Shown piece by piece: positions 42,913-60,429 of a stretch of 64,000 nucleotides of DNA. Below the pieces are notes generated by a model. That model saw only the letters and a program-made list of their open reading frames with translations, did no database searches and was not told where the DNA came from. Source of the DNA: Chrysoporthe austroafricana (Eukaryota > Ascomycota > Sordariomycetes > Diaporthales > Cryphonectriaceae); the NCBI GenBank assembly GCA_001051155.2, contig JYIP02000010.1, forward strand, positions 496,001-560,000, given 5' to 3'. Within the stretch, counting starts at the first letter, position 1. Each line of letters starts with the position of its first letter. The translations under genes were made by a program, and so were the position numbers.

Positions 42913-44565
42913 TTAGAAGCCCAGTATCTTGTTCACTCTTCGAATGACTTCTTTCTCTCCTTCGCTGTAGCTATTAGGTTCAGCTAGAGCCTCAAGTCCA
43001 AAAGAAGCGAGCCCATCATCGCTGGCTATAGATCTGAGGTAGCTCTCGTCTGGCCGACCCACATGTTCAGACTCGCCCTTGCCACCAGGAAAGTCAGGAG
43101 CCGGAGTGCCATTCATCCATGCTTCGCGCATGCTTACGACGTAATTGGCGTTGATCTCGGTAGCAGGGCAGACTGGAATGTAAAGCACGCTTGAGTCTGC
43201 TTTGCCCTTATGCTCAAAGTCAACAGCGTGAATCGCTGTAAATGTCTGTCAGCCGTGCCGCACAAGTGGTCGATGGCGAGTTGACTTACTATCGCAGTGC
43301 CATGCCACGTAGTCCCCGGGCTTGACTCGAGGCACATGTACCATTGTCCTGTCCAGCTCTAGGTGAGGGTGCATCGCCAGCTTGGGGAACTCCATGCCAT
43401 AGCCCGGCGTTGCGCCGGGTATCTCGCTTGTCATCTCATCACCACCAGTGAACTCCCAGTTCTCAGGAGCCAGGAATCTCGCCCTTCCCAGACTACCTGG
43501 CTTCGCCGTCTCCAAATCAATGACGCTCCTTGGCCGGAAGAACGGCCGCAGTAGTCCATACGCGGTAGCCAGCTTTAGGAGCGGGCTCACCAGCAAAGTT
43601 CCCTCCTTTGGCCCGGCTTCGCTAATACTCAGCCAGCCCTGAAACATCCTGAACGCACTGCAAGCCCCCAGGCCATTGTATAAATCATTCACAGCATCAA
43701 CTCTCGTGCTCGCGTCCCAAGGGTCGTACTTGGACTCCCAGTCTCCCTCGAATATGAAGTCATACGTGCCACCACGGCCGTATCCTTCGGGCATCCACCT
43801 CTCCACGCTTCCGCCATCCATATGCGGACCAAGCGCGAAGGCTGCATCCCCAGGCAGCCGTATGCGCAAGCGGTCGGCGTAGGACATGGGGTGAGAGATG
43901 GAGACTAGAGACTTTGGGTCGGATGTATGCCAGGTCGATCTCATGAGCGCTTTTTGCATTCGCATGAAGTTATTATGGGTGCGGGCGCGCAGCTGAGGCG
44001 CTGACCAGTATAGCTCCCATACCTGAGGGTCATTTGCAGGAAAGCCTAGAAACTACGTGAGCGAGAAGATACGCAAGATGCAACGCAGCGGTGGAACAGT
44101 ACCTCGAGTCTGAGGATTCTTCCGGATGTATTCGTGGAGCTCGAATTTGTAATCGCGGGCCTCTTCCTCCGGTATAACGCCTCTGATGACCACAGCACCA
44201 CGTTTCTTAATTTCATCCCGAGTTGTGCTGAGGTCGTCGTCCAGTTGATCAAATCGAATCTCGGGGATGACACTTGATCCTCTCTCGGCAATGGTGTTAT
44301 TCTCGACCCTGAGACGCTCGAGCAATGCATTCCAGCTTGCCTTGACCTTTTCCTCTCGCCCCTCCACCAGAGACAACTTGAGCAGGCGAAACTCGTCTGG
44401 TAGAGGCTTGTCTTTTATACCAGACAAAGACGCGAAGGAGTCTGATATATCACCCTCCCGCTTGATCCGCGATGCTGCCGCTACCGCGTCCATGGCGACT
44501 GCGCGCCTTTGGCTGACAAGTGCCCATGGTGGACGAATAGCCCGTCTTACTGCAGTCCGGAGCAT
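42913..44565 (-). CDS. DUF1479 (YbiU-like) Fe(II)/2-oxoglutarate oxygenase-fold protein, 3 exons
   Basis: 513 aa from exons 44565-44103, 44045-43290 and 43235-42913, all junctions in matching phase. Family marks: RGAVVIRGVIPEEEARDYK, then across intron 1 GFPANDPQVWELYWSAPQ, THNNFMRMQKALM, YADRLRIRLPGD, and the probable iron ligands H229 and D231 in GPHMDGGSVERW; the distal His is in WHCDTIHAVDF (H404 or H409), restored by splicing intron 2. DUF1479 proteins are predicted oxygenases of unknown substrate, widespread in fungi and some bacteria. The N-terminus (LRTAVRRAIRPPWALVSQRRAV) is basic and amphipathic, so mitochondrial import is possible (inference). Divergent from the transcription factor gene 559 bp away, which may regulate it. 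Confidence 0.9.
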
Positions 44566-45124
44566 CTCTCTTAGCTGTAGGGCGGCGGCAGGCTGAGGAG
44601 ATTTGTGGTTGTGGATGTATGCGAGAACACCGCAGCTGACAGGACATGATCTCCGCTCCCATGGTGATACTCTGGATGCGGATCGTGTTTCTTATAAGAC
44701 CAAAGTGGGTGGCATCAGGGACACCATAGCGGTATTTCTGTTTCGAGAAAGCCACCAAACCATACAGGTGTATTACATAGTACGAGCGCTTGAGTACGGA
44801 GCTTGCAGTCTCTTGTCTGTGGGGTAAACGAACTTCCCCGGACCCGCCCGGACTGGTGGCGAGGTGGAAGGGCGGCATAGCCGGTATTGGCATAGCTCCT
44901 ATGTCTCGTATCCACAGCGGAGATACTATAAATGGGTTGACTCCGACTCCACTCCCTTCTCGACGACCTTGCACCTCGCGGCTCACTATAGGGCGCTCCC
45001 TATGTTTGTGGACGAGCATAGAGTTAGCATAGCATACGACAACGACTGCTCACGGATACATACCCTTCATCCCGGATCCACACCTCCAATCCTGTTCGCT
45101 GCCGCCGCCCGAACGTGCATTGCA
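44566..45124. promoter_or_regulatory. Shared divergent intergenic region (DUF1479 / transcription factor)
   Basis: 559 bp between two divergent starts; must contain both promoters. A symmetrical CGG-N-CCG type site was looked for; CCCGGACCCGCCCGG at about 44837-44851 is GC-rich and partly symmetrical but not a convincing operator. Confidence 0.4.
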
Positions 45125-47453
45125 ATGAACACTTCGGAAGCGGCTAGCACTGCATCATCTCCTCTTAGCCATAAGCGCACCATCAAATTCGTGGCCTGGA
45201 GTGGAGATGGAAAGCCGCGCCGCGTTCAGCAAGCCTGCGGCGCCTGCCGAAAGAAGAAGGTCGGTCATGCGGTGTTTCTGTCATGTACTATCACTAAGGC
45301 TACACACAGAGAAGATGTGATCACGGAGACAATAATCCAGACCCTGCTATCAGTATCACCCGAGGACCACGACAGAGGGCGAAGCCGATTCAACAGCAGG
45401 GCCGGTCTACACAGCGTCCCGTACACCGGCCAGTTCCTTCTGAGTCGACGTCACCGGCCACCGAGGCATCCTCAGCTGAGCCCGTGGCCTCGCGGCGGGC
45501 TGAACTGTCGACATCACGTTTTGTTGGGGACTTGGCCCCAGAAAGCGTATTCATTAATGCCGCAAACGGAAGCTCGAGGCAGCCATCGCCTCATCGGAAC
45601 CAGTCCGAGGTTGGGACCTGGATGTGGCCCTCGTCTCGGACCTCTGATGAGCAAACTGTCGACAACCTCAACGACACTATAGGACGACAAGCTGCAAGTC
45701 CTGCTGCATCGGGTGCGGCTTCGAGGCAGGCCCAACCCATTCTCCCTCTAGGTAGCCGTCTGCAAAGGCCCGAGGAGCGCACAGTCAGCGCAGACGAGCA
45801 TCTCGCAGTCGGCCCGCCAGCCTCAGATTATCAGTGTCTATATCAGATCTACTTTGACCGGATCTACCCCATCCTGCCTATGCTCAACGAGTCTGACACA
45901 CTTGCAATCAAGGACTCGCATGTACTGTCTATCCGACACAGAGTGTTCAGACAGGCTATCTCCCTGGCTGCTGCCCTAGACCCCTCAGCGCGACACCATC
46001 TCCGCCTAAACGATGGTGGTCCACTTATGTCCCCCCGAGATTTTCATCAGCAGCTAGCAAAGGCCATATTTGCGTCCCTGGACGCAGATGTTTTGAGAGA
46101 CCGTGTGGATCACATCCGTGTGCTGCTTCTCATGTTCTTCTTCTACCAGCCATGCCATGCCTCCGAGAGGGACGTGTCGCCCTTAATCTTCAGTCAGGCC
46201 GTTCATTATGCGCACACTTTGGGAATACACCTCTGCGGGTTTGGCAAGGGGTCCGGAGATACCGACGCAGAAGCAACGTTTTGTTTGCTCTGGGCTCTCG
46301 ATCGCATCAACGCCGCCTTCTACGGCCGACCCTGTCTTCTTCATGAGCGCGACATCGATCGAGACCTGGGAGCGTGTATCGAGAGACAGGAGCGACCTGC
46401 GTTCAGATTGTTTCTCAGAGTGGCACAGATGCTCCAGCGCGTCATCTGTCTATATCGTCCTCGAAACGAAGGCGCTGAGTTGGTAGAGATCCCCGTGTTC
46501 GAGAGTATGATCCTTGACGCCGGCGCGGAGAAAACCCCGTCCTGCCTGCTGGGTGAGTTAATCACTTCCGAGAAATCAATACCTTAAGCTGACAGTGCCC
46601 CATAGCTACCATAGAAATCTTCTACCATGCTGTCTCTATACTCTCTTGTCGAAGATACCCGAGCTTCACAGTCTCATCTTCAGAGAACCCCATTGCACAC
46701 CTCCCGCACCCCAACGTCAATGCTCGTCGTTCGTTGTCGGCAGATCGTATCGTCGACTCAGTTGTGGCTTCGCTCTCACACCAGCTGCCCTCCGACAATA
46801 TCTGCATGTTGCCTTTTGTTCCGTACGGGGTTGCCCTCTCCCTCAGCGTGATGTACTTGAAAATGCGCCACTCCAGGATATCAATGTACAGATCAAGAGC
46901 GAAAGCCCGCTTCGGAGAGATTGTGAGCTTGTTGCATTCGTTGGGTGAGGTATACACGAGCGCAAGATTCAATGCGGGTCTTGGAATCTCAGTACTGAAC
47001 GAGATGGACAAGACAGCCAAGGGCCTTGCCCACTGCAATGGCACTGTGGCGACGGGGAGCATGGCGGCCGGGGCTGGTACTACCGCTTCACGCCGGGTCA
47101 GATCCGAACTTCAAGGCAGGACGGGCGATCAGTTGAGTGAGGTGAGCGACGCAGAGTCTCAACGACGCGAAGACACGGCCCTAGGAACACCAACCCAGGG
47201 CGATGGGACGAATGAACGATTTCCTTCTGCCACCTTCACATCATCAAGAGAGCCCAACACACAAATACCGACAGAGACACCGGCCGTTAATGGGGTCCTT
47301 GCGTCTCAATTTCAACAGTGGGACAACATTTCAGACGTTGATCTTTTTGTACACTTCGATCCAGACTTCAATTTGGACGCGGTCGATGCGGCATTGGAAG
47401 CGAACCTCGAAATGGGATATCCGCAAATATGGACCACGCAATGGCCAGAGTGA
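45125..47453 (+). CDS. Fungal-specific transcription factor with truncated-looking Zn cluster, 3 exons
   Basis: 741 aa from exons 45125-45259, 45310-46552 and 46606-47453; lengths sum to a multiple of three. The N-terminal DNA-binding part is assembled over intron 1: QQACGACRKKK joined to RRCDHGD, with Cys at residues 38, 41 and 48. A full Zn2Cys6 cluster would need three more Cys shortly after; none follows here. Then a Ser/Pro-rich linker, RFVGDLAPESVF (a conserved boundary motif in this regulator class), and the fungal_trans middle homology region starting DYQCLYQIYFDRIYPILPMLNE, with RQAISLAAALD, AVHYAHTLGIHL and LLWALDRINAAFYGRP. Acidic, Asn/Asp-rich C-terminus (DVDLFVHFDPDF) could be the activation domain. 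Nuclear regulator, possibly of the divergent DUF1479 gene (inference). Confidence 0.85.
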
Positions 47454-47955: not shown

Positions 47956-48828
47956 TCAGGGCTTCGCCGTCTCCTCTCCTTCGCTAGCATCAGGATTGAA
48001 GACGATATAAGATCCACCGTTCCCATCTCCAATAGAAAATCCATCAAATGCTGGCTCCATGTCCAAGTCCTGCCGAAGAAGCGCCGCATCTACCTCAACG
48101 AGCTCCATTTCCTCCTCAACCTCATCATCTCCAGCCTCACCGCTAAAGAAAGCCGTCCTGTCCGAAAAGAGCTCACCCTCCTCACCTGCATCCTTGGACC
48201 GAATCACGTGTAGCCGATACGCGAACACGATTCCCGGCGCTGTGTCATAGTTGCGCTTTTTCTTATCCGTCATGCTCCCGGAGATATTAGCTCCCAGCCC
48301 AGCAGGCTCAGTGCTGGCGGGTGAAAGCTCCGACCCTCCGAGGCAGGTATTCGTCTTCCCCCTCTCGTCCGTGACCGTGAAGCTCTGCTGTGCCACTCGT
48401 AGCCCCGAGATGATGTACACGCACCGCTTACCGAAACGTCCGCTTTCGATGTGCTTTTTTACGCCGTCGAGGGCCACAATCGCCTTCAGGGTTTCCGGGG
48501 CGAAGGCCCCGTTGTACACCCGCACCTCGTGATCCATGGTGCTGGAGTTGTTCTTGTACCAGGACATGTCGGCCTTGACCTTAGAATTGGCGAGGTTGAG
48601 AAACTTGGCGAAGAGCTCGAGCCCAAAGGACCGGCTCTTCTCATCCGAGAAATTGACATTTTTCTCGACGATAGACTTGGTCTCTAGCAGGGCGATGGTC
48701 GGGTGATCAGCGAGGGAGGCGAGCGTGATGGTCGGCTGTCGAGGGCTGGGGATGATCCTACCTAGAGCGATTTGTCCGTCGGGCACAAAGGTGAAGTTGG
48801 GAGGGAGGAACCACGTTTTGCCTGTCAT
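47956..48828 (-). CDS. Fungal gasdermin-like pore-forming cell-death protein (RCD-1/HET-Q1 type)
   Basis: Intronless, 290 aa, start at the ATG 48828. Resembles fungal gasdermin homologues such as Neurospora RCD-1 and Podospora HET-Q1 in length (about 250-290 aa) and pattern: WFLPPNFTF at residues 6-14, ALGRIIPSPRQP at 21-32, an alternating hydrophobic beta pattern, and the strand CVYIISGLRVAQQSF at 136-150 with GIVFAYRLHVI at 199-209. No signal peptide and no classical TM helix, as expected for a beta-pore former. Residues 213-260 are strongly acidic, then a Gly-rich end: a possible removable inhibitory tail. In HET-Q1 systems a neighbouring subtilisin clips the C-terminus to release the pore-forming part; a subtilisin gene lies 1.1 kb away in the same direction. 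Call rests on pattern recognition; structure prediction would settle it. Confidence 0.7.
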   Translation of the reverse strand: MTGKTWFLPPNFTFVPDGQIALGRIIPSPRQPTITLASLADHPTIALLETKSIVEKNVNFSDEKSRSFGLELFAKFLNLANSKVKADMSWYKNNSSTMDHEVRVYNGAFAPETLKAIVALDGVKKHIESGRFGKRCVYIISGLRVAQQSFTVTDERGKTNTCLGGSELSPASTEPAGLGANISGSMTDKKKRNYDTAPGIVFAYRLHVIRSKDAGEEGELFSDRTAFFSGEAGDDEVEEEMELVEVDAALLRQDLDMEPAFDGFSIGDGNGGSYIVFNPDASEGEETAKP

Positions 48829-49931
48829 TGTGAAGGGGTAAAGCAGGGGCAAAAGATGGCAGATTGGTTGACCAGAATTGAGACAACATGTGGGAAAGTT
48901 TGTCGTGCGAGATGATGGTCGCTTTCGTCCTTGTCGAGACTCCTTTGTGCGCCAGATCTCAACCGTGCATCTTCGGGCAGGCATCGAAGTTCGGGGGGGG
49001 GGGGACCCAGCCTCCGAACCCCCTCGAGCGGACGCAGATGCGCCTCTCTGAGCGGCTAATTACTGTGGCCCAGCGCCACATACATTAACAAACACCCTGT
49101 CTGAGGACATCATCACACAATCCCGACGTTGCGCTGTTTTGCAGACGCTCCGGGGAACAATTTCTCTTGTTTTGCAACCTCGGGGCTAAGCTGCCTCTGT
49201 ATTGAAGGGATATCTCTGTTAGAACGTGGCTGTGTTTTCAACACGCTGGATTGGCCAGAGAGCGTAGAGAAGAGAGCTCATGCACGAGTGTGCACGGGAG
49301 ATGACCCAAATTGTATGTATACAGATAAAGATGTATGAGTCAGTCCCTCTCTGGTATTCAAGCGCTTTGGGCCTACTCCAGCAATCTCTGCCACTACCAC
49401 GTTCTGAAGATGGTGAAGAAGCGGCATTTGAGCTCAGAAGCGACACCAATTCCAGCCCTGCAAGCTGAAGTGATCCGATGTGCCAGGATAAGAGTGGCGA
49501 CCATTCGTACTGAGGATCATTCTTGCTGAGGACTATATGTGTTACACGAACCCCTTAGGGTGACTCTTCTTCAGGTAGAAAGAGCACTACGCGATACGCG
49601 CCGTTGAGCAGCCATGCCCCGCCCTGCCGCATACGAAGGAAACCAACTGCATTAGAACGGAGGCTGAGCCTTGGAATGCCTGAAGCACTAACGGTACAGT
49701 CCTCGACTATAAAAATGCCGGGATGTTTCGAAGGATCTCAGGGAAGAACCTGGTTTCTCAAGCACTCCTTAGACCCCCTTAGCAATTATCGTTGAATTGA
49801 AGCAGACCCTTTCAAGCCCTCACATGAGCCTTTGTCACATAAACATTCGCATCGAGGGTGCCTGAGAGCCTTGTCAATATTCAACAGGGAGAGACTCTCG
49901 CCAGTGGAATGATGAATTATCAAAACCCCTC
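48829..49931. other. Intergenic, 1.1 kb, with dispersed repeat copy
   Basis: Between the gasdermin-like gene and the protease. Holds a G10 tract at about 48993-49002 and the second copy of the diverged repeat (49282-49392). No coding support. Confidence 0.55.
49282..49392 (+). repeat. Diverged dispersed repeat, copy B
   Basis: Partner of 37089-37200; same orientation, with shared TACAGA, TGAGTCAG-CCCTCT and GCGCTTTGG blocks. Confidence 0.55.
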
Positions 49932-52879
49932 TTAGCCCGTCTCCGTCCCCGTTCCAGTTGGAAACCTCCTATCGACATCCGACAAAGTATCGTAAATAAC
50001 GCAGTACCGCCCGTAATCGTCCGGTTTTCTCTTCCAGAACCACGTCGGCTGTACGGCCTTGAGCCGTGGATGGTCGATATTCGGTGATGCCAGGCGATGC
50101 AACATTGCCTCCATCCCCTTCGCCGTCCAGAGGCGCTGGAGGACATGGGTTGATCCGCTCGCTGCCCACCCCTGAAGTGGCGGGGGCGGCGAAAGGAGGA
50201 AGGAGGTGTACGCCAGCATGGTGGCGCAGATCCCCGCCATCGTGGCCGTGGCGACTGAGGACCCAGGCTGGCAAACTCCGGGGTATTTGATGCTGAACTC
50301 CTCACGTATGTAGTTCGGGATATCGTCGCCATACGTCCCGACCACCACGGCACCGTTGCTTGTGCTCGCCGAGTTTGATTGCAGAAATCTTCCGTAGCAG
50401 TTCGTTGCGTAGACCGATATGACGGCAGGGTGGCGGGCCGGAAAGCTCTCGTCGTCTGTAGACGAATTGCCGGCGCTGGCGAGGAAGATGATGTTTTCCT
50501 GACGCTGTCTCTGCACAGTCTCGATGGCCTCGCGTATCCTTTGGTCGTCTCTTGGGAAGCCGAAGGACATAGAGATGATGTCGGCTTTGCCGGCCTGCCC
50601 AGCCCAGAGGATGGCCTATCCAGACAGTGTTGTAAGCATTATAGGTCACGAACGATGTGACTAGTGACTACTCCACTCACATTCTTGATGTTTTCTTGAC
50701 TTCGCTCGAGCTCATTCGTGTTTTCGGCGACACGCGCCACCAGGAGTTCTACACTAGGAGCACACTCCATGATGAGCCTCGCCATGAAGGTGCCATGACC
50801 AAAGGTATCCGTCTTTGCGAGCGTGCCGGATTCAACAAAATCTACGTGTTGTATTCTGATTAGTCCGCTCATTTTCTCAATGACAGGAAAGTCTCTGTCA
50901 ATCCCTGTATCCAGGATAGCAACTCGAACTGGGGTCGTGATTCCACGCTCGCGTCGTTTACGCTCCACATGCTCACTAATTTTCTTCAGGTCCTTGAGCC
51001 ACATCTTGGGGTTTATAGCGCTATGAAACAACGCTTCTGGCTCCAGCTGCCATGATGCGTCGGATACCCCTCCCTGTGGAAGAGGGCTCGGCTTCTTATT
51101 GACGTACATAATATCCCCAGCTTGCACTTTGAAGCCCCTTTTCGCTAGCCATGCAAGTGGGCGGACTACGTTTCTGTGAAAAATTTTCCTCCGCATGCGA
51201 ACGGCAGCTTGCAAGTCTGAAGCTTTCGTCGGGCTGGTGGTCGGCTGAGTCGATGGAAGGACGAAGTTCTTGCTGTCGAGACAAAACTTCACGGCCTGAT
51301 CAAAGTGCTTCTTGTTGTTCGTGAAACCGTTCCAATTTGTCCTTTCTAGCTCGAGCAGCTCATCGATCGCTATTTTATGGTTGAGATTCGCCTGTGCGAC
51401 TTCATTTCGCCGTTGTCCGGTCTGGAAGGGCTTGGCGAGACCGATCTCTAGGAGCAATACGCCTATATCAAAGATCCGAGGGCATCGATGGTTTAGTAGG
51501 TCCTGGTCTAAGATGTCTGCGCTAGTGTTGCTGGGAACGCCAAAAGGGAAAGATAGGTATGCGCGGAGGGGTAGTTGGTTATTATGTCCTCTACTGTTCT
51601 TCTCGGGCATGGACCAGATTGTGTCGCTCGTCCACTTGGTTCGCATCAATTCCGAGTCGTAGTACTGCCAGTATGACCATGCTACAGCATACGAGAGCAT
51701 TACCTTGTCTTTTAGTGTGAGGTCATAGTGGCGTAAGACGCTTGCAAGGGAGTCTCCGGGACCGGCCTCGAGAATTTGCTTTAACGGTTGCGATTTCTTC
51801 AGGAAGAAAACGCCGTGGTCGTGCTTGAATGAGAGAAACAGACGGGCGGTAATGTCCATTTCTAGGTATGGGCAGAAGCCTCCTCGGCTGAGGAGCTGCT
51901 GATTATTGTCCACAGGGCTCGCTGATTGACTAAAATCTCAGCGGTCAGTATGCATGAGTTGATAACGGCGGCCATTAGCCAACAGGCGTCAGGGCTGATC
52001 AGAGAGCCACCACTAAGTGGCTTCCAACAGAGCGGGAGGCTAGAGGAGATGACTAGCCCACAGAGAGAATTGCCTGATTGTATGGCAGCCACCTCTATTA
52101 TCTGGCTATAATTGTGATTTATGTGTGGAAGACACCTACATCCTTAAGCAAAACTCTTGCCAAAGGGACATATCCATGGCCGAAACGAGGAGGACAATGT
52201 TTTGCGAAGCCATGTCATGGCTGTCTTCAGGTTCATGCAAACACAGCCGCGCGGGATGACGCGGGATTTGAGAATCCCTCTCGCTGGCTGGCAGCGTGCC
52301 ATTAGCTTCGTGTGACGCTGGGTCGCACTCGGCGATCGACTGAAGTGCCTTGAAAATCCCGTCATTGAGGTTAACCGAAGTATCAGGGACGTCGAAGTGC
52401 TGGAGCGCGGAGCCGAGCAATTCTTCTGCACCATTTCCGACCTTGGTCAACTTGTTGAGGAGGTCATCGCAAGCGTCTGCGATGCTTCGAGCGTGTTGTG
52501 TTCGATTCTTGAAGAAGTTCACAGGGCACGTCTCTCGAGCTGTAGGCGCGTTCCGGTTAAATGGAGACGCAGTATAGGAGAAGCTTGAGAATAGAGTCGA
52601 GCTTGTCGACCCTTTAATTGGCCGAGTGATGGCCTGTAAGTCCCACAGAATCGTGTGGCAGAGCTGCGCAACATCAGACTCGATCCAGTAAGGCGGAAGC
52701 GAGACAAGATATGTGCTGATCAAGTGAAGTCTGGCGGCGATGTCGTGAGCTATACGGAATGTGTCCAAGTCGGAAGGCCTCAGCCCCTTCTTGGACGCAC
52801 TGTAGATATCTTCAGAGAGCTGTGCAGCGTGTGATGCTAGGCGGGCCGAAGCGTCCTCGGCCATCTCTGGTGTCAACAT
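49932..52879 (-). CDS. Subtilisin-like (S8) protease with long fungal N-terminal domains (HET-Q2-like)
   Basis: 890 aa from exons 52879-52140, 51929-50681 and 50615-49932; phases match and intron 1 has a TACTGACCGC branch site before TTTTAG. The catalytic domain has D587 in VAILDTGID, H625 in FGHGTFMA, oxyanion N713 in LASAGN and S783 in GSSVATATMAG: the full subtilisin triad. No signal or propeptide; the 580 residues before it are a helical domain (1-230) and a DUF7580-like region with FDIGVLLLEIGL, seen in fungal STAND and cell-death proteins. So this is an intracellular protease. It lies upstream of the gasdermin-like gene on the same strand; in Podospora the equivalent HET-Q2 cleaves HET-Q1. 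Start could also be at the ATG 15 bp downstream (MAEDAS). Confidence 0.85.
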
Positions 52880-53225
52880 CTCCGAGTGGAATAATCGCGA
52901 TTCGGAGGTATGATGCTGAAGGAAAGCACTCTTGTCAGTGGTGTTATGGATTGAGAGCGTGATGAGCAGCGAATTAACGGTTGTAATTTTAGTTGTGATG
53001 AGGGGCACTCGTTCCAACTATCCACCTCATCAAAACGATATCCTCCCTTCTAAACTGTTTGCGATTGACGCTAGACGCTGGCCACTTTTCCCTCAGAGAA
53101 TACAGAATCAGCTGCCATCCTGCATCTTCTTAGATTTCCAGGTCTCAAGAGACGACTATCTGCACAGGTTTGCCATCATAACACTCATATCGCTCCAGGT
53201 TTTGGGCGAGCATACAAGGCCGAAC
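52880..53225. promoter_or_regulatory. Short bidirectional intergenic region (protease / zinc-finger-WD40)
   Basis: Only 346 bp separate two divergent start codons, so the two genes probably share control sequences. No specific site recognised. Confidence 0.45.
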
Positions 53226-55506
53226 ATGGATCAAGCGGCTCCTGGAGAATCCGTCCTGGAACTTACGAAGGCTTGCATCTCCAAGTTCGAGCAGCTCCCC
53301 GCAGCCCAGAGCCCTCAACACAAGGAAGCTCTAGAGAATAGGTTGGCTGACTTTAGTCTCTGGGTAGACGGCATAGGCGCGATGGCGAAGCCTGGAGCCT
53401 CGCTTGATTCCAGACTCCGCGGCCGGCAAAGCGACCTCGCATTGGTGAAGAACGTCCTTACCATGCTGATCGACTCCCTAGACTACTACTCAGGCCTCGC
53501 AGAAGACGATGCGAGCTCGGATGGAGCCATCCAGCACATTGACTCTGCCCTCAAGAACCTCGCTCTGATCGGTGTGGCCATCTGCCGGACTGGAAAGGCA
53601 TCGCGAAACCGCAAGGCCGAACGAACATTCAACCTGGATGAGCACCAGGACTTCAGAAGGCATCTCGAGTGCGTGGTTCTTCTCCGTCCAACAGAACAAG
53701 GTCTCTTCCGCAAGACAGAGAATGGGCACTATATCTCCGAATTGGCCGCCTTGAAACTGTCAGGCCTCCAAAAGCGCCTCATTGAAGCGAACCTCAGGCG
53801 GAGGCACAACTTTTCGCTGGCGCAGAAAAGATCCAGGTTCCAAGAGGGGGCGCGGGCCCAGTGCTTAAGTCCTGCAGTTCCTTCGTCCGCCGACAACCTC
53901 TCGCAGGATGTCCCTACTGGTGATACAGAAAACGCAGCCGATCCTCGAGATCCAAATCAAGATCCAGCCGCCAAGGCCTTGAGGGGCAAAGGACGCGCAA
54001 TACCAACAATATCGGGATTTTCCCGTGCATCTACAGCTGAGGGAACTCTGAATTATGACCGGGTCGCAAAAAGGTATACTCCAGGGGCAGTAAAAACGCA
54101 GATCACTGTCATCGCCTCTGATGCCGAGTTCCCACGGGCCCCTTCCATCCCTGAAGGTCGAGAGATGTCGACATGTCCCTGCTGTTGTCAGTCCCTACCG
54201 ATTGAAACCTTCTGCAATCCCAAAATATGGAAGTACGTAGATGCCACCAGACCCTAACAACCAATCCCCCCAGATCGGCCTTATTGACACTATATTCAGG
54301 CAACATATCATCGAAGACTTGTGCCCTTACACCTGCGTTGCCGAGAACTGTCCTACGCCACAGCTCCTCTTCTGCACACGAAATGAGTGGGAAGACCATA
54401 TCAGAAAGAGCCATCCGCCCTGGTGGCAATGCCCATTTTGTGAAGAGCAAGATGCAGACTACACAACGATGGAGAGTATGGGGAACCACCTCCAGACCAA
54501 CCATAAAAATGAGCTCCTAGACAATTCCCTTTCAACCCTCGTCTCTTGGTCTGCGGTCCACAGGATAGGGATCAAATCTTGTCCTTTATGTGCCTCGTAC
54601 GGAGCCGAGGACTCGCCGGATCTCGTCGACCACGTCTTGCGGCACGCCTACGAGTTCGCCCTTCGTGCTCTTCCGTGGCCACAACCCGTCATCCACGACT
54701 TGAATGAACCACCGGGCAAGCTAAAACTTCCAGAAGATCTAGGTGACGCACGAAATCTCGAACGTTGGGTCAACGAAGATGTTCATGGGAGCAAGAAAAC
54801 TGTAGAGCTGAAACTATGCGACTACGACAGAGCCGACCACTCTGACCCAACATCGATCGATCTTTCCGAGTACTGCAACTACTTTTCTACAAATAGATAC
54901 TTCGACGATAGGTCTGAGGAAGAGTCTGCTAAGCCGCAAGTCTCTCCAAGCAGCGCTTCCGAGCATACTGCTGAATCTACTCGCTTAGATGATGCTGAAC
55001 TCAAACATTTTAGCCAGCAGACGCTCACGGGGCATAGCGGGTTGGTTTTGTCAGTCACATTTTCGCCGGACGGCAGCCGTATAGCTTTAGGATCCAACGA
55101 CAAAACTATCAGAATCTGGGACGTACAAAGCGACGCTTATATATCGACGCTCGAAGGACATAGCGATTTGGTTAACTCAGTCGCCATTTCGCCGGACGGC
55201 AGCCGTATAGCTTCAGGATCTAGCGACAAGACTATTAGAATCTGGGACGTACAAAGTCGCGCTTGTATATCGACGCTCGAAGGGAATAGCGGGCCGGTTT
55301 CGTCAGTCGCCTTTTCTCCAGACGGCAGCCGTATAGCTTCAGGGTCCTTCGACAAAAATATTAGGATCTGGGACGTACAAAACGACACTTGCATATCGAC
55401 GCTCGAAGGGAATAGTTATTCGATTTCGGAAATCGCCTTTTCGCCGGACGGCAGCCGTATAGCTTCAGGGTGGGAGGCTGAAGCCGTCAAGATCTTCGAC
55501 GCGTAG
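53226..55506 (+). CDS. AcuF-type C2H2 zinc-finger protein fused to four WD40 repeats
   Basis: 737 aa from exons 53226-54232 and 54300-55506; the 67-nt intron (GTACGT..TTCAG) joins IWK to KQHIIEDLCPYTC. Residues 1-200 are an alpha-helical regulatory domain, then a disordered linker, CPCCCQSLP, and Cys/His pairs typical of the fungal 'oxidoreductase AcuF-like C2H2' module: PYTCVAENC, WEDHIRKSH, WQCPFC, HLQTNH, CPLC-ASYG, DHVLRHAYEFALRALPWP. The last 160 residues are WD repeats of exactly 42 aa (LTGHSGLVLSV-FSPDGSRIA-GS-DKTIRIWDVQ), nearly identical to each other, as in HET-E-type NLR receptors. The fourth repeat degenerates (GWEAEAVKIFDA) and hits a stop. Such repeats bind variable ligands in fungal recognition proteins. 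Divergent from the subtilisin gene. Confidence 0.82.
55024..55506 (+). repeat. 126-bp WD40 tandem repeats (4 copies)
   Basis: Copies start at 55024, 55150, 55276 and 55402, exactly 126 bp apart (42 codons). Blocks such as CGGACGGCAGCCGTATAGCTT occur in every copy. The high DNA identity points to recent amplification or concerted evolution. Confidence 0.95.
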
Positions 55507-55549
55507 CCGCACTACACCTGACAGCAGAAGCAACCTGGCAGAACCGTTG

Positions 55550-56060
55550 AGGCGCCAAGGGAAGTACGAGAAGGCCGAGCAGATACACCAGGAGGCACTG
55601 GGGCGAATCAGCTGCGATCGTAAGTATCAGTCAGTTCTTTGAGTCTATCAGCTAACAGATTTCCCAGGTCTTTTGGAAGAACTACCTAACGCCATGCAGT
55701 GTCTGCAAGACCTGATTTAGTCTATCCTCACGATAATAAGAACGACTTGACGCAGAAAAGGCACTCAAGACTTTGCCGTCTGGCTTGGATTTGGGCTGGA
55801 CGAACCAGGTTACGCACCCTCTAGCCTTCAATGGCTCTACGGGGACCGGGCAGGAGGAACTCAACCTTATCTCTCTTTTTCTTGCCGACAGCCTATCTTC
55901 GTCCCCCCCCTCCTCTCTCATTAGAAAGACTCCAGCATACTCCTTCTGCAACTCGAGCATCGTGGAGCATAATTCAGCTAGCCCCATTCTCCATGGCCTC
56001 GTTTTACAACTGCTTTAGCAGCATCCGCCGGCCCTCTCAGCTACGTCCTGATCTAATCCT
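55550..56060 (+). pseudogene. Relics of TPR and NACHT (STAND/NLR) sequence
   Basis: 55554-55620 reads RQGKYEKAEQIHQEALGR, a good match to the kinesin-light-chain-type TPR of fungal NLRs, just after the WD40 stop. 55770-56040 reads GSTGTGQ (a decayed Walker A with the Lys replaced), then LISLFLADSL, YSFCNSS and SPILHGLVLQLL, which follow the order and spacing of fungal NACHT domains (S-x-F-L, Y-F-F-C, A-I-L-R-G-L-I-x-Q-L). Frames are broken and the fragments are in reversed domain order relative to a NACHT-WD/TPR protein, so these are remnants or rearranged pieces, not a gene. Confidence 0.5.
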
Positions 56061-56798
56061 ACGAGCGCGGACGGAAATAATTGGAGACATTTGACGCTCC
56101 ATAGGTCAGTTTCATAAGCATGGCTACGAATAAGCCTTCCAGAAGCAATATGTCATCCTGCTAAAGTCGGTGCATGAGACCTTCCTGCGCTTGTGCCTGT
56201 GACACCATCAGTGGAGCCGGTTTCCACAGTCATGTAGACTGAAGCGACTTTGTCCCCGTCTTGCGTGCCAAGTTGCTTCCCAAGCTTACTGCAAAATTGC
56301 CTTCTGTCTCTGGAGCGAGAAATCAGTGCCGCTGAGATTGATGACGCCAACAGCTCCAGTAATGTATGTGCGAGACGGACTATGTAATAATTTAGACCAA
56401 AGGTCACTCGTAGTCAGCTGGCAGTGGTTACTCATTTCAAGCTCAACATCAACATGGTTAGTCATATGGTGACTTGTACAGACTTGCTCTCCCCATATAA
56501 TGTAATTACCTGTGGGTTATTAGCCTCAACGAAGGAGATAACGATGGCAGGATGGACTGTAGCATTATAGAGCCAGAATGCTCGTTGAGAATGTCGAGAT
56601 TGTAGGGGCCCATGGCAAGGGTAAATGATAATCCTAGAAATTCGGCGCCGGTGGGTGCGGGTACCAGTCATGCTGTTGATCGTTGAGGGTAAGTTCCACG
56701 TCACAGCATTTCCTTATCCATTTTGTATCGTCAGCAACGCCATGATGGATCTATTCAGGCGCTTTTAAGTCACTACCAGGTGGAATGATATTTCAAAC
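56061..56798. other. Intergenic, 0.7 kb
   Basis: Short frames on the minus strand only; no domain recognised. May contain more decayed sequence. Confidence 0.45.
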
Positions 56799-58349
56799 TT
56801 AGAGCTTAAGCCGTTCCATTGTGGACACAACTTTGTCCACGTCTTCTTTCCCAAAGCTCTCGCTAGCTGTGCTGCTGTACTTCAACCTAGATGCGCCGCG
56901 CTCGTACGTCCTGCTCGTATTTGAATCATACCTCTTCTTCTCAGGAACCTTATCAGACAAAATGCGGTAAGTGTCGCTCCTCACAGTTAGGATCATGGTA
57001 TTCAAAATCCTCTCCCGTCGCATCTCGGCTGTCTCGCTTTCGAAGTCGCCCCGTCCCACAATGACATCCGGAGTTCTCCAGTTGGGATACAGGTTCCGGT
57101 GTGTCTGTCGGACCTGAATGCCATCCCTGATCGCCCTAAAATAGTAGTCGCAGAGACGGCATGTTGGCTTACTGCCGCCGATGTATCTGTATCCCTCAAA
57201 AAACTTTGAGGGATGGAGGTCACTTATGTCAGGATCGCTTACGATCGATTCGTGAACCAACACTTCGGCGTGGACAATAGGTTGGAAGCTAAGTCTCTTA
57301 TTTATCGCCAAAATATTCTTGTCCAGGTCAAAATCTTGAAGCTTCTCAGCATCGGCCTGGTAAGATTCCAGATTCGCTTTCTCGCGTTCTGAAGATGCCA
57401 TCCGGTGGAGAATGTGTGCGGCTCCCGATTGCTTCTTTGATATCGGATTCGGCTCTGGTGTTGACGAGGGGACGCAAATAACCTCGAAATCGTGAAAGAG
57501 ACGGCCCCATCTGGGTTGCGAGCGGGCTTCAATGAGAGTCTGCACACCCTCCAAATACGACAGTAGCCGCCCCGCTGCATGGCGCAGTTCGGCCCAGGGG
57601 GAGACTTGTCCGGTCTGTGTAATATTGGCCTTATTCCTGAAGATTGTACTTATGCTAGACCTCGATAGCTTTTGGATGCATCTCATCAGTTTCGTACAAT
57701 TCTGAAAAACTTTGGACATTAAAAGTTAGCTCGCTGTCTCAAAAATACTACGGATACCCTCGTACTTACATCTGTCTTCTTCGAGCTCTCTATCATCCGC
57801 ATCGGCAGAGAGACTTTGAAGTTCTTGAAGTTTTTCAACCACTTTCTGGCTGTTTCCTGGTGTCTTGAGGCATTCCCTCGAGAACGAGGCGGCGGCCGTA
57901 ATGTAGACATGCAACCGCGGCCTATCAAAAGCAACGACTTTTTGCAGGACACTATTCTTGATCAATGGATCGGATTGCTCCGTCCAGTCCCGCAGCGTCT
58001 GGAGGATATTCACAACAAAATCCCTGAGATCGACCAGTTCCTCTTCATTCCGTTGATTGGATGCAAATCGATACTGTATACGGTCTGGGTAATTGAGAGC
58101 AACCGCCGCGGTAAAAGTACTCCCAAAAGGCCTGGTATCGCAGATCTGGGCCAACTTGTTCATAAAATCATGGAAAAGCTGTTCCGCATCCATGTTGAAC
58201 CTGTCTGGGGTCGACTCAGGCGACCGAGGCGCGTGGTTGTGCATGCAGGCCTGAGTGGCGGCGAGGAGCAGGACGAGAGGCTCATAGAATCTGTTGCGAA
58301 GTGACGTCCTCATTTTCACCCGTTGTTCCTGGGCCTGTTCAGATTGCAT
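56799..58349 (-). CDS. OTT_1508-type deaminase-fold protein, 2 exons
   Basis: 496 aa from exons 58349-57770 and 57709-56799. The 60-nt intron has a GTAAGT donor and a GAGCTAAC branch site; the acceptor CCAAAG gives the matching phase (reading the nearer TTTCAG would create a stop). Helical N-terminal half (1-300), then the deaminase core: H340-A-E342 in PIVHAEVLVHES and C377-x-x-C380 in PTCRLCDYYF, the zinc-binding and catalytic pattern of the cytidine-deaminase superfamily. The FFEGYRYIGGSKPTC segment between them is typical of the fungal OTT_1508-like branch. Bacterial relatives include toxin-linked deaminases; fungal ones are often found near recognition genes, function unknown. The product has no signal peptide. 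It lies 1.3 kb from the WD40 gene and faces it tail to tail. Confidence 0.75.
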
Positions 58350-59774
58350 TGTGACGAGTTGGTGCTGGGACTGCTGACGATTTTGCCACTTCCCTTCAAC
58401 GCTGGATGCCCAACATTAAAAGTCTATTGAATATTGTGCTCTAATATCGAATGCCGGACGTGTAATTCTCTTCGCTCTTGTAATCATCTGTTTATTTATC
58501 TTTCGAATCAGTCGATGGATTACTCGAATTAGAGCCTAAGATAACGCCAAGTTCAACGCATCAACACGCAGCGACCAGCCACGGCAGGCCCTGCGTGGGG
58601 CCCGCCACATGGTTCTTACAGGGCTTTCCTTTACCCGCGGCGGGCCAGAACACCATTCTCGTAACGTTACTCTAGATCTACAATCCCCAAAGAACAAGTA
58701 GGCGCAGTTTGCTCAACCCAGGCTCTGGTGGCCTCCCACCAGGGTCTTTTTGGCGGCTACTGTGAACATAAGCCGTCCTGATGAGAAGTGACGCTATTTT
58801 CAGGCCCCATGCATGAGGCTATGTCCAATTATGTCTAATTCGCGGCTGCTAGCGGGTCATGGTCGCCTACCGTCACAGCTCCACACCCAAAAGCAAGCTC
58901 CCTCGGCGGGCCTCCTGCAGCTCAGCGTCACAAGGAAGCGCTGGCCAATTGCCCGAGAAGCCATTTCACAAAGCTGCGCGTCTTGAGGAGCCACAAGCCT
59001 CCCTTCCTAAATCTTTTCTCCTCGCCTTGAACGTGGACCAAGCCCAACGTTGATGTTTTCCGGTTCCGCATTGATCAGAACCACCACAGGATGACCCTCA
59101 CTAAACGAGCATCTTACCACACCATGCACGTGGATGCGTTCTAGTTAATACCACACGCCCAAATACTCGTCTAGTTTCTGAGTTCATCCACAGATTTCTG
59201 TTCTGCTTAATCGGCAAAGGACTCGGGAGGAATCATCAGGAGTTGACTCAACAAGTGTTCTATTAGGCTCTCCGCGGATCGAGCTCCCTATACATCACCA
59301 ATAGTGCTGGGAAAGGTTTGTAGACCCTAGGGAGAAAACATGACCATGGAACCATGAGACTTATAAACCCTTTAGACTACCCCACAACGCTTGTGAACGG
59401 AGGCGTGTCACGTAATCAGAACGTGTTCTTGGTTCCATACGACTTAGCTGTGGGACTTGCAGTCAGAGTTTGCCAAGCTCGGCATATGGAATATGTCCGC
59501 ATCGAGATACCTTACGCAGGGAATGGATCCGATGATAGATGGATCTTTCGAGCCTGCATCTTCAACAGTAGAGGAAAGGGCCAATGAGCTAGTTGTGGAA
59601 CCAATTGCCTCTTCCGATTCCGGGGGTACGCACAACCGGAGGCTGGCCAGCAGCGTCGACTTCGCTAATTTCGACACATGTATTTCTCCCGGATCCCTAT
59701 CCCTCGATACTGAGGCCTACCTGGGACCCTCTGGACACCCGAATGCGCTTGGTGTCCCGAGCACGAGGACTTAG
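58350..59774. other. Intergenic, 1.4 kb
   Basis: No gene supported from 58350 to about 59456. An open frame at 59457-59771 is in the same frame as the C2H2 gene that follows but is closed by a TAG at 59772; see that entry. Confidence 0.45.
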
Positions 59775-59867
59775 GACTCGTTCATCCCAGATACAGGCAC
59801 CGGTCTAGACGAGACCTTTCCCGAGCAGAATACAGCCCAAATTTTCGAGGGCAACACACATCCTAAC

Positions 59868-60429
59868 ATGGGGCTCTCCCAACTTCCGAATGATCAAACA
59901 CCAGTTCCTTACAACTGCATACCTTCAGCAATGATTTTCTTACATCCCCGCCAATTCTCCGACCAACAAGACCATATAAACCGGGTGAATTCCCTTCAGC
60001 CGACAAGCAATCTCTTATCAACGTCTGAAGCAATCTATGAACCTCCCAGCGACGAAGTTTATGTGTGCAGTGTTTGCAGGAAGCCATGGCCTACAAAAAA
60101 TGATCTGAAGTGAGCTTACAAATATATCTGTTGGCGGTCTTAGTCGCTTACTCACATCGACTCCTATCAGCAAGCACAACCTGACCCACTCACGTCCGGT
60201 TCCCTGTTTCCGCTGTGACCAAAGGTTCCCTACAAAGAGGGAACGCAAACGGCATATGTCAGTGCATCATCGTGCATGGGCGGCCGAACACCCTGAGCTG
60301 CTCAACCTCCATCCAGCCTCCAGACTGGAGTGCGAGCACTGCGGATACAAACCCGACAGTACTCGACCGGACCGCCTGACCAGGCATATGAGGAGGTACA
60401 ATGGGACATGTGCTGGGAAGGGCAAGTAA
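59868..60429 (+). CDS. Small C2H2 zinc-finger protein, 2 exons
   Basis: 166 aa from ATG 59868: exons 59868-60109 and 60171-60429, with a GTGAGC donor and TATCAG acceptor in matching phase. The intron lies inside the first finger, which reads YVCSVCRKPWPTKNDL-NKHNLTH (C-x2-C, H-x3-H). A second finger is PCFRCDQRFPTKRERKRHMSVHH, and a third, LECEHCGYKPDSTRPDRLTRHMRRYNGTC, has a C2HC pattern. It ends soon after, so it is a short nuclear DNA-binding candidate. The frame is also open from 59775 up to this ATG and further back from 59457, separated only by an in-frame TAG at 59772-59774 that is itself a possible acceptor (CTTAG). The true protein may be longer at its N-terminus. Confidence 0.7.

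Follow-up and report, generated by a model that had tools for sequence, protein, structure and literature searches.

The locus and its genes

We analysed a stretch of 64,000 nucleotides (hereafter, the window) of the ascomycete Chrysoporthe austroafricana, corresponding to C2:496001-560000 in a genome that comprises 22 contigs and 48.15 Mb; named relatives of the window proteins are found in filamentous ascomycetes, e.g. Chaetomium, Xylaria and Trichoderma. A gasdermin gene (G), a protease gene (S) and a zinc-finger/WD40 gene (Z) are followed here by a deaminase gene of the OTT_1508 type and a zinc-finger gene divergent from it, all within 12.5 kb. It is likely that these genes constitute two separate, adjoining modules: a three-gene gasdermin cluster (module A) and a pair resembling OLD-ZAO (module B). 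Their components belong to known kinds, while the third partner of the gasdermin cluster, Z, and the side-by-side placement of the modules appear to be new. All gene models are predicted, with splice sites picked from splice signals and open frames, without transcripts.

47956-48828, minus strand: G, fungal gasdermin, 290 amino acids, single open exon
52879-52140, 51929-50681 and 50615-49932 (exons), minus strand: S, DUF7580 and S8 subtilisin, 890 amino acids
53226-55506, plus strand: Z, zinc-finger/WD40 gene, two exons, 737 amino acids, divergent from S
58349-57770 and 57709-56799 (exons), minus strand: OLD, OTT_1508-like deaminase, 496 amino acids (Pfam OTT_1508_deam, E = 1.1e-18)
59493-60109 and 60171-60429 (exons), plus strand: ZAO candidate, three C2H2 fingers, 290 residues and one in-frame stop
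59772-59774, plus strand: in-frame TAG, codon 94 of zao, separating the N-terminal part from the fingers, read directly from the sequence

The initial annotation had described G, S, Z and the deaminase gene as intact, and all four indeed have open models; the zao candidate had been overlooked.

The gasdermin and its protease

For G, the profile search and the fold search both indicate RCD-1 of Neurospora crassa, and the predicted structure (predicted local distance difference test, pLDDT, 72.5; predicted template modelling score, pTM, 0.69) has the fold of a gasdermin N-domain. Hence, fold and profile agree on the gasdermin-like nature initially proposed for this 290-residue protein. Its acidic C-terminal tail comprises 45-62 amino acids, depending on the cut, with an isoelectric point of 4.05, and may be inhibitory; removal of the tail at about residue 238 would free 5.6 kDa. 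A phmmer search of the PDB with the single G sequence was unproductive, the later profile search being successful, and there was no match in NCBIfam. When the G alignment was scanned against collections of viral, bacterial and archaeal contigs, no relatives were confirmed. A gasdermin 51% identical to G (P0067) is labelled Candidatus Bathyarchaeota and comes from a 2.2-kb contig; probably, this is fungal contamination in an archaeal assembly.

The adjoining gene S lies on the same strand and encodes a DUF7580 domain (residues 262-506, Pfam E = 3.2e-17) followed by Peptidase_S8 (residues 581-798, E = 7.4e-17). The motifs of the catalytic triad are complete (Asp587, His625 and Ser783, the latter number counted from the motif), the Asn motif is also present, and the N-terminus, MLTPEMAEDASARLASHAAQ, carries no hydrophobic signal as judged by eye. 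Thus, the description of S as a subtilisin with a complete triad and without an evident secretion signal holds, although the DUF7580 domain had been left unnamed. A protease with intact triad motifs next to a gene with the gasdermin fold is what is expected of a HET-Q2-like partner, and the suggested gasdermin/protease pairing is supported. In the genome there are six DUF7580 genes (seven matches, two of them from one gene), four of which also match S8.

Z, a conserved core with interchangeable C-termini

The predicted model of Z has a helical core. The match of its C2H2 zinc finger, at E = 0.0059, stays short of the Pfam cut-off; the Cys/His columns hardly vary, and several relatives carry C2H2-type names in UniRef. 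The WD40 part consists of four blades. The corresponding repeats had been called near-identical, but at the DNA level identity is 80-83% for units 1-3 and 59-64% for unit 4; the 126-base frame of unit 4 extends beyond the stop codon.

A nucleotide-binding receptor (NLR) would have a NACHT or NB-ARC domain, and none was found in Z. At E up to 10, exon 1 matched no Pfam family, and the part of exon 2 preceding WD40 matched five, the best being zf-C2H2_4, with neither NACHT nor NB-ARC among them; the whole protein matched WD40 and propeller models (best 25 of 55 families). In NCBIfam, exon 1 had no match and the WD40 part had weak propeller matches under the cut-offs. The fold search with the N-terminal model yielded no match at E <= 0.001, which carries little weight, helical bundles being unspecific.

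All 83 BLASTP matches of Z align to the core in part or as a whole, and 37 of them match the WD40 part too. Instead of WD40, relatives of Z may have ankyrin, TPR, kinase, GTPase or NACHT C-termini; alignment A2, headed by the bare window exon, has 41 members, of which 11 match WD40 and nine match ankyrin. The same variation is seen within the genome, where the Z partners on C16 and C17 end in ankyrin repeats and a kinase, respectively, and those on C21 and at C2:643k have nothing recognised beyond a weak finger. In one protein (P0196), a Z-like region (31% identity) is fused to DUF7580. A conserved core with interchangeable C-termini agrees with a sensor that exchanges its recognition part, and Z is the probable detached sensor of the gasdermin cluster.

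Placement of Z, S and G in this genome and in other fungi

A genome search with Z residues 1-563 yielded nine matches at seven places, counting the window's own. At five of the seven places, the window included, Z and a DUF7580 gene are divergent neighbours. About 350 to 1560 bp (taken between match ends or open-frame ends) separate them, and the number of pairs expected by chance within 5 kb is about 0.009. Apart from the window, two of these paired loci (C2:648927 and C16:4266860) have a gasdermin adjoining the protease.

The other two places are C17:2749318 and C6:291877; the copy at the latter (C6:291877-292344) contains four TAG and one TAA and is apparently a pseudogene. At C17:569-577 kb, the kinase-tailed Z lies beside a DUF7580-S8 protease, and no gasdermin was found in 570-580 kb; possibly, this locus has another effector. 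At C21:239001-249000, a Z-DUF7580 pair has no S8 match, and the 704-residue open frame of Z has no Pfam match.

In other fungi, at least 11 contigs, as a raw count, carry the protease, the gasdermin and Z, some of the contigs being chromosome-sized; among the matches listed, Z and S share a contig in 26 cases. These counts are based on 68 gasdermin matches (from the best 120 of 204), 68 of 83 Z matches and 104 of 120 S matches, the remainder being mainly unnamed metagenome matches and some named ones on contigs shorter than 9 kb (P0067, P0266 and P0303). In Xylaria arbuscula and Trichoderma aggressivum, all three genes have consecutive locus tags. Pairs with consecutive tags are the following.

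Z and S: Magnaporthiopsis poae, MAPG_10647/10648 and 10820/10821
Z and S: Neonectria ditissima, g7031/g7032
Z and S: Fusarium ambrosium, 7861/7862
Z and S: Gaeumannomyces tritici, 4265/4266
Z and gasdermin: Fusarium piperis, 882/883
Z and gasdermin: Trichoderma viride, 4513/4514
S and gasdermin: Orbilia brochopaga, 1013/1014
S and gasdermin: Penicillium frequentans, 9401/9402
S and gasdermin: Fusarium floridanum, 28/29

Judged from gene placement, the assignment of Z to one three-gene unit with G and S is supported. The suggestion that the zinc-finger/WD40 protein serves as the recognition part is likewise strengthened by the kept divergent placement, the shared contigs and consecutive tags, and the swapped repeat domains. 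Clustering with a protease gene is reported for about 80% or more of gasdermin genes in fungi, and these clusters are described as two-gene units (PMC12881547, PMC10197012). That the unit here comprises just the gasdermin and the protease is improbable, given the divergent Z at five of seven places, the 26 contigs shared by Z and S, and the Z-like/DUF7580 fusion. The literature passages searched contain no account of a zinc-finger protein as a partner in its own right.

The deaminase and its divergent zinc-finger gene

The deaminase has the motifs HAE at 340 and CxxC at 377, that is, the HxE...CxxC signature; a search against the PDB gave no match at E <= 1. Divergent from it is the zao candidate, whose three fingers were counted by eye, Pfam matching one of them (zf-C2H2_4, E = 6.3e-4, under the cut-off). 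Hence, next to the deaminase there is a zinc-finger gene with an in-frame UAG before the fingers, and by analogy with OLD-ZAO this TAG is a candidate site of adenosine-to-inosine (A-to-I) premature-stop correction. It lies in a predicted loop, as do 57% of 3556 control TAGs, 288 being equally stable, so that the hairpin provides weak support.

The genome has four OTT_1508 genes, three of which are near relatives (the window gene and those on C18 and C16, respectively 57% and 37% identical to it); the C18 deaminase used as a query matched these three only. The C16 match contains three stops, reflecting introns or damage. Each of the three near relatives is accompanied by a divergent gene in which three C2H2 fingers (by eye) are preceded by a single in-frame stop, TAG in the window and on C16 and TGA on C18. 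The fourth gene (C18:1335112), a 641-residue open frame, represents another subfamily; tblastn with the window deaminase did not hit it, and a search of C18:1330001-1340000 revealed no C2H2 motif.

Upstream of the stop, the window and C18 zao genes share 37 of 84 residues, and downstream of it they share 63 of 185, with the stops two alignment columns apart; the C16 stop is 14 columns off, in a poorly aligned stretch. In the finger part, 47 of 100 codons are identical in amino acid between the window and C18, with non-synonymous divergence (dN) of 0.42 and synonymous divergence (dS) not computable and taken as saturated. As the fingers are conserved downstream of the stop, they are under selection. 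Such conservation would also be expected if the product began at a downstream start, and a short form of this kind has been described for zao-1 (PMC12754623). The C18 TGA occupies positions 2343-2345 of C18:3895501-3905500; editing of UGA would likewise yield a tryptophan codon, yet with G preceding the A.

Z was also considered as the ZAO of the window deaminase and rejected, as the gene at 59493-60429 is a better candidate and Z tracks DUF7580 genes. Thus, the deaminase has a partner of its own, which places it in another type of module that is already known; by analogy with the described pairs, we regard it as one half of a putative OLD-ZAO-like A-to-I editing pair.

One locus or two

There are several possible relationships between the gasdermin cluster and the deaminase. 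One is that four or five of the genes make up one abortive-infection locus, with the gasdermin cluster as the suicide effector under the control of the deaminase or of full-length ZAO. The location of all genes within 12.5 kb fits this explanation, and the published account of OLD-ZAO, which does not contain the words gasdermin, protease, pore or cell death, names no such executioner. However, no gasdermin match was found at the other two OLD-ZAO loci and no deaminase match at the other four Z/DUF7580 loci, in the stretches of about 10 to 20 kb examined. Nor do the promoters suggest common control: the k-mers common to the three OLD-ZAO intergenic regions are not above the control mean (three vs 4.1 for 8-mers, one vs 3.0 for 9-mers, and none beyond 9 up to 12-mers), and these four k-mers are absent from the gasdermin and S-Z promoters. 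A single locus is therefore unlikely. The deaminase, which the initial annotation had presented as the fourth member and an extra effector, was not found together with the gasdermin unit in the stretches examined at these other loci and has its own zao partner, and we rejected it as a member; the expected co-occurrence of genes was found, in this genome and in other fungi, for the trio, but the quartet was not found a second time in this genome.

Slightly less probable, and improbable on the whole, is that the cluster is a decaying island, marked by a truncated Z, by TPR and NACHT-like remnants downstream of it and by the zao stop codon. The broken TPR and weak NACHT-like pieces, the mere four WD40 blades of Z and the in-frame stop in zao are what decay would produce. 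On the other hand, the models of G, S, Z and the deaminase are open and retain their motifs, and the C18 paralogue has its zao stop just two columns away, with conserved fingers downstream.

A hypothetical functional linkage of the cluster and the pair could take the form of one antiviral suicide circuit, where virus-induced OLD edits zao, ZAO switches on Z, the protease and the gasdermin, and the pore is the executioner of the OLD-ZAO growth arrest; we deem this very improbable, although, if true, it would mean pyroptosis-like death under the control of RNA editing. The analysis revealed no functional link between the two modules, and the titles found in the literature on gasdermin and RNA editing in fungi look unrelated.

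Two observations weigh against the two-module explanation itself. The template modelling scores of the G fold matches are low, and the 85 codons that separate the fingers from the zao stop are weakly conserved (17 of 85 identical, dN 0.92, dS 1.41). They have lowered our confidence, and we retain two separate modules as the likely explanation rather than a firm one.

Proposed working of the modules

For module A, the results obtained here are the gene models, the gasdermin fold, the protease triad motifs, the kept placement and the swapped C-termini of Z. We suggest that Z would use its WD40 repeats to perceive a signal of non-self or danger and would switch on the DUF7580-S8 protease. S would then cut G near residues 228-245, within the acidic segment, so that an acidic tail of about 4.7-6.6 kDa would be lost, and the freed G domain may form RCD-1-like membrane pores, leading to the death of the hyphal compartment. 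The signal, the order of action, the cleavage and the pore are all inferred.

For module B, the domain, the motifs, the divergent partner, the in-frame TAG and two further such pairs have been established. Here, the deaminase is proposed to convert the UAG of the zao messenger into UIG, which would yield a full-length three-finger transcription factor and might elicit an antiviral, growth-arresting response. The modules need not act together.

Comparison with known systems

Similarly to HET-Q1/HET-Q2 of Podospora anserina, module A combines a gasdermin of similar length (278 amino acids reported for HET-Q1) with an S8 protease. The acidic tail is also shared: the cut of G at about residue 238 would free 5.6 kDa, against the reported 5 kDa for HET-Q1, if the sites are assumed to correspond. 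In contrast, S has 890 amino acids and DUF7580 (388 amino acids reported for HET-Q2), G and S reside on one chromosome, whereas het-Q1 and het-Q2 are reported to be idiomorphs, and there is a conserved divergent third gene. RCD-1 is reportedly activated by a second allelic variant and not by cleavage (PMC12881547), unlike the route proposed for G. The Q2L proteases are described as fused to WD40/ANK/TPR or kinase-like domains (PMC12881547, PMC10197012), so that the same classes of repeats are tied to a gasdermin-activating protease; here, however, a protein of its own carries the repeats, which has a helical/zinc-finger core and is transcribed divergently.

Like OLD-ZAO of N. crassa (PMC12754623), module B places a zinc-finger gene with a stop before the fingers next to an OTT_1508 deaminase that has HxE and CxxC; the likeness lies in adjacency and in the stop-before-fingers layout. 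The arrangement is also described in PMC13327615, and an earlier virology paper on N. crassa (PMC7648066) mentions neither zao nor OTT_1508. The same layout with three C2H2 fingers is reported for CHE1 of Fusarium graminearum, a protein of 310 amino acids with the stop after 145 (PMC11169179), compared to 290 residues and codon 94 in the window. Unlike OLD-ZAO and CHE1, one of the three pairs here carries TGA, the window pair adjoins a gasdermin cluster, and editing is predicted.

With its three genes, the cluster thus appears to represent a new form of a cell-death cluster that is known, and the adjoining pair, by analogy, a newly found module of the OLD-ZAO type. The stimuli activating putative sensors of fungal cell-death pathways are named a major open question in a review (PMC12881547), and Z, being a conserved divergent partner with interchangeable repeats, is a concrete candidate sensor. 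The adjoining pair makes the locus a natural site for asking whether RNA-editing defence and gasdermin death are coupled.

Remnants and neighbouring genes

Between Z and the deaminase, the initial annotation had noted broken NLR fragments. A TPR remnant and a weak NACHT-like piece are indeed present, but both fall under the curated cut-offs; tblastn of Z homologues against 55451-56850 gave no match at E <= 0.01. Two further genes are upstream neighbours of the cluster.

55529-55639, plus strand: TPR remnant (TPR_7, E = 2.1e-4)
55767-56015, plus strand: possible NACHT-like remnant, weak (NPHP3_N, E = 0.04)
within 43249-47453: Gig2-like protein gene (E = 9e-95)
within 43249-47453: Fungal_trans transcription-factor gene (E = 4.6e-9)

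Contig C2 (1.37 Mb, about 3% of the genome) harbours two of the five Z/DUF7580 loci and one of the three OLD-ZAO pairs, and possibly is a region rich in immune genes.

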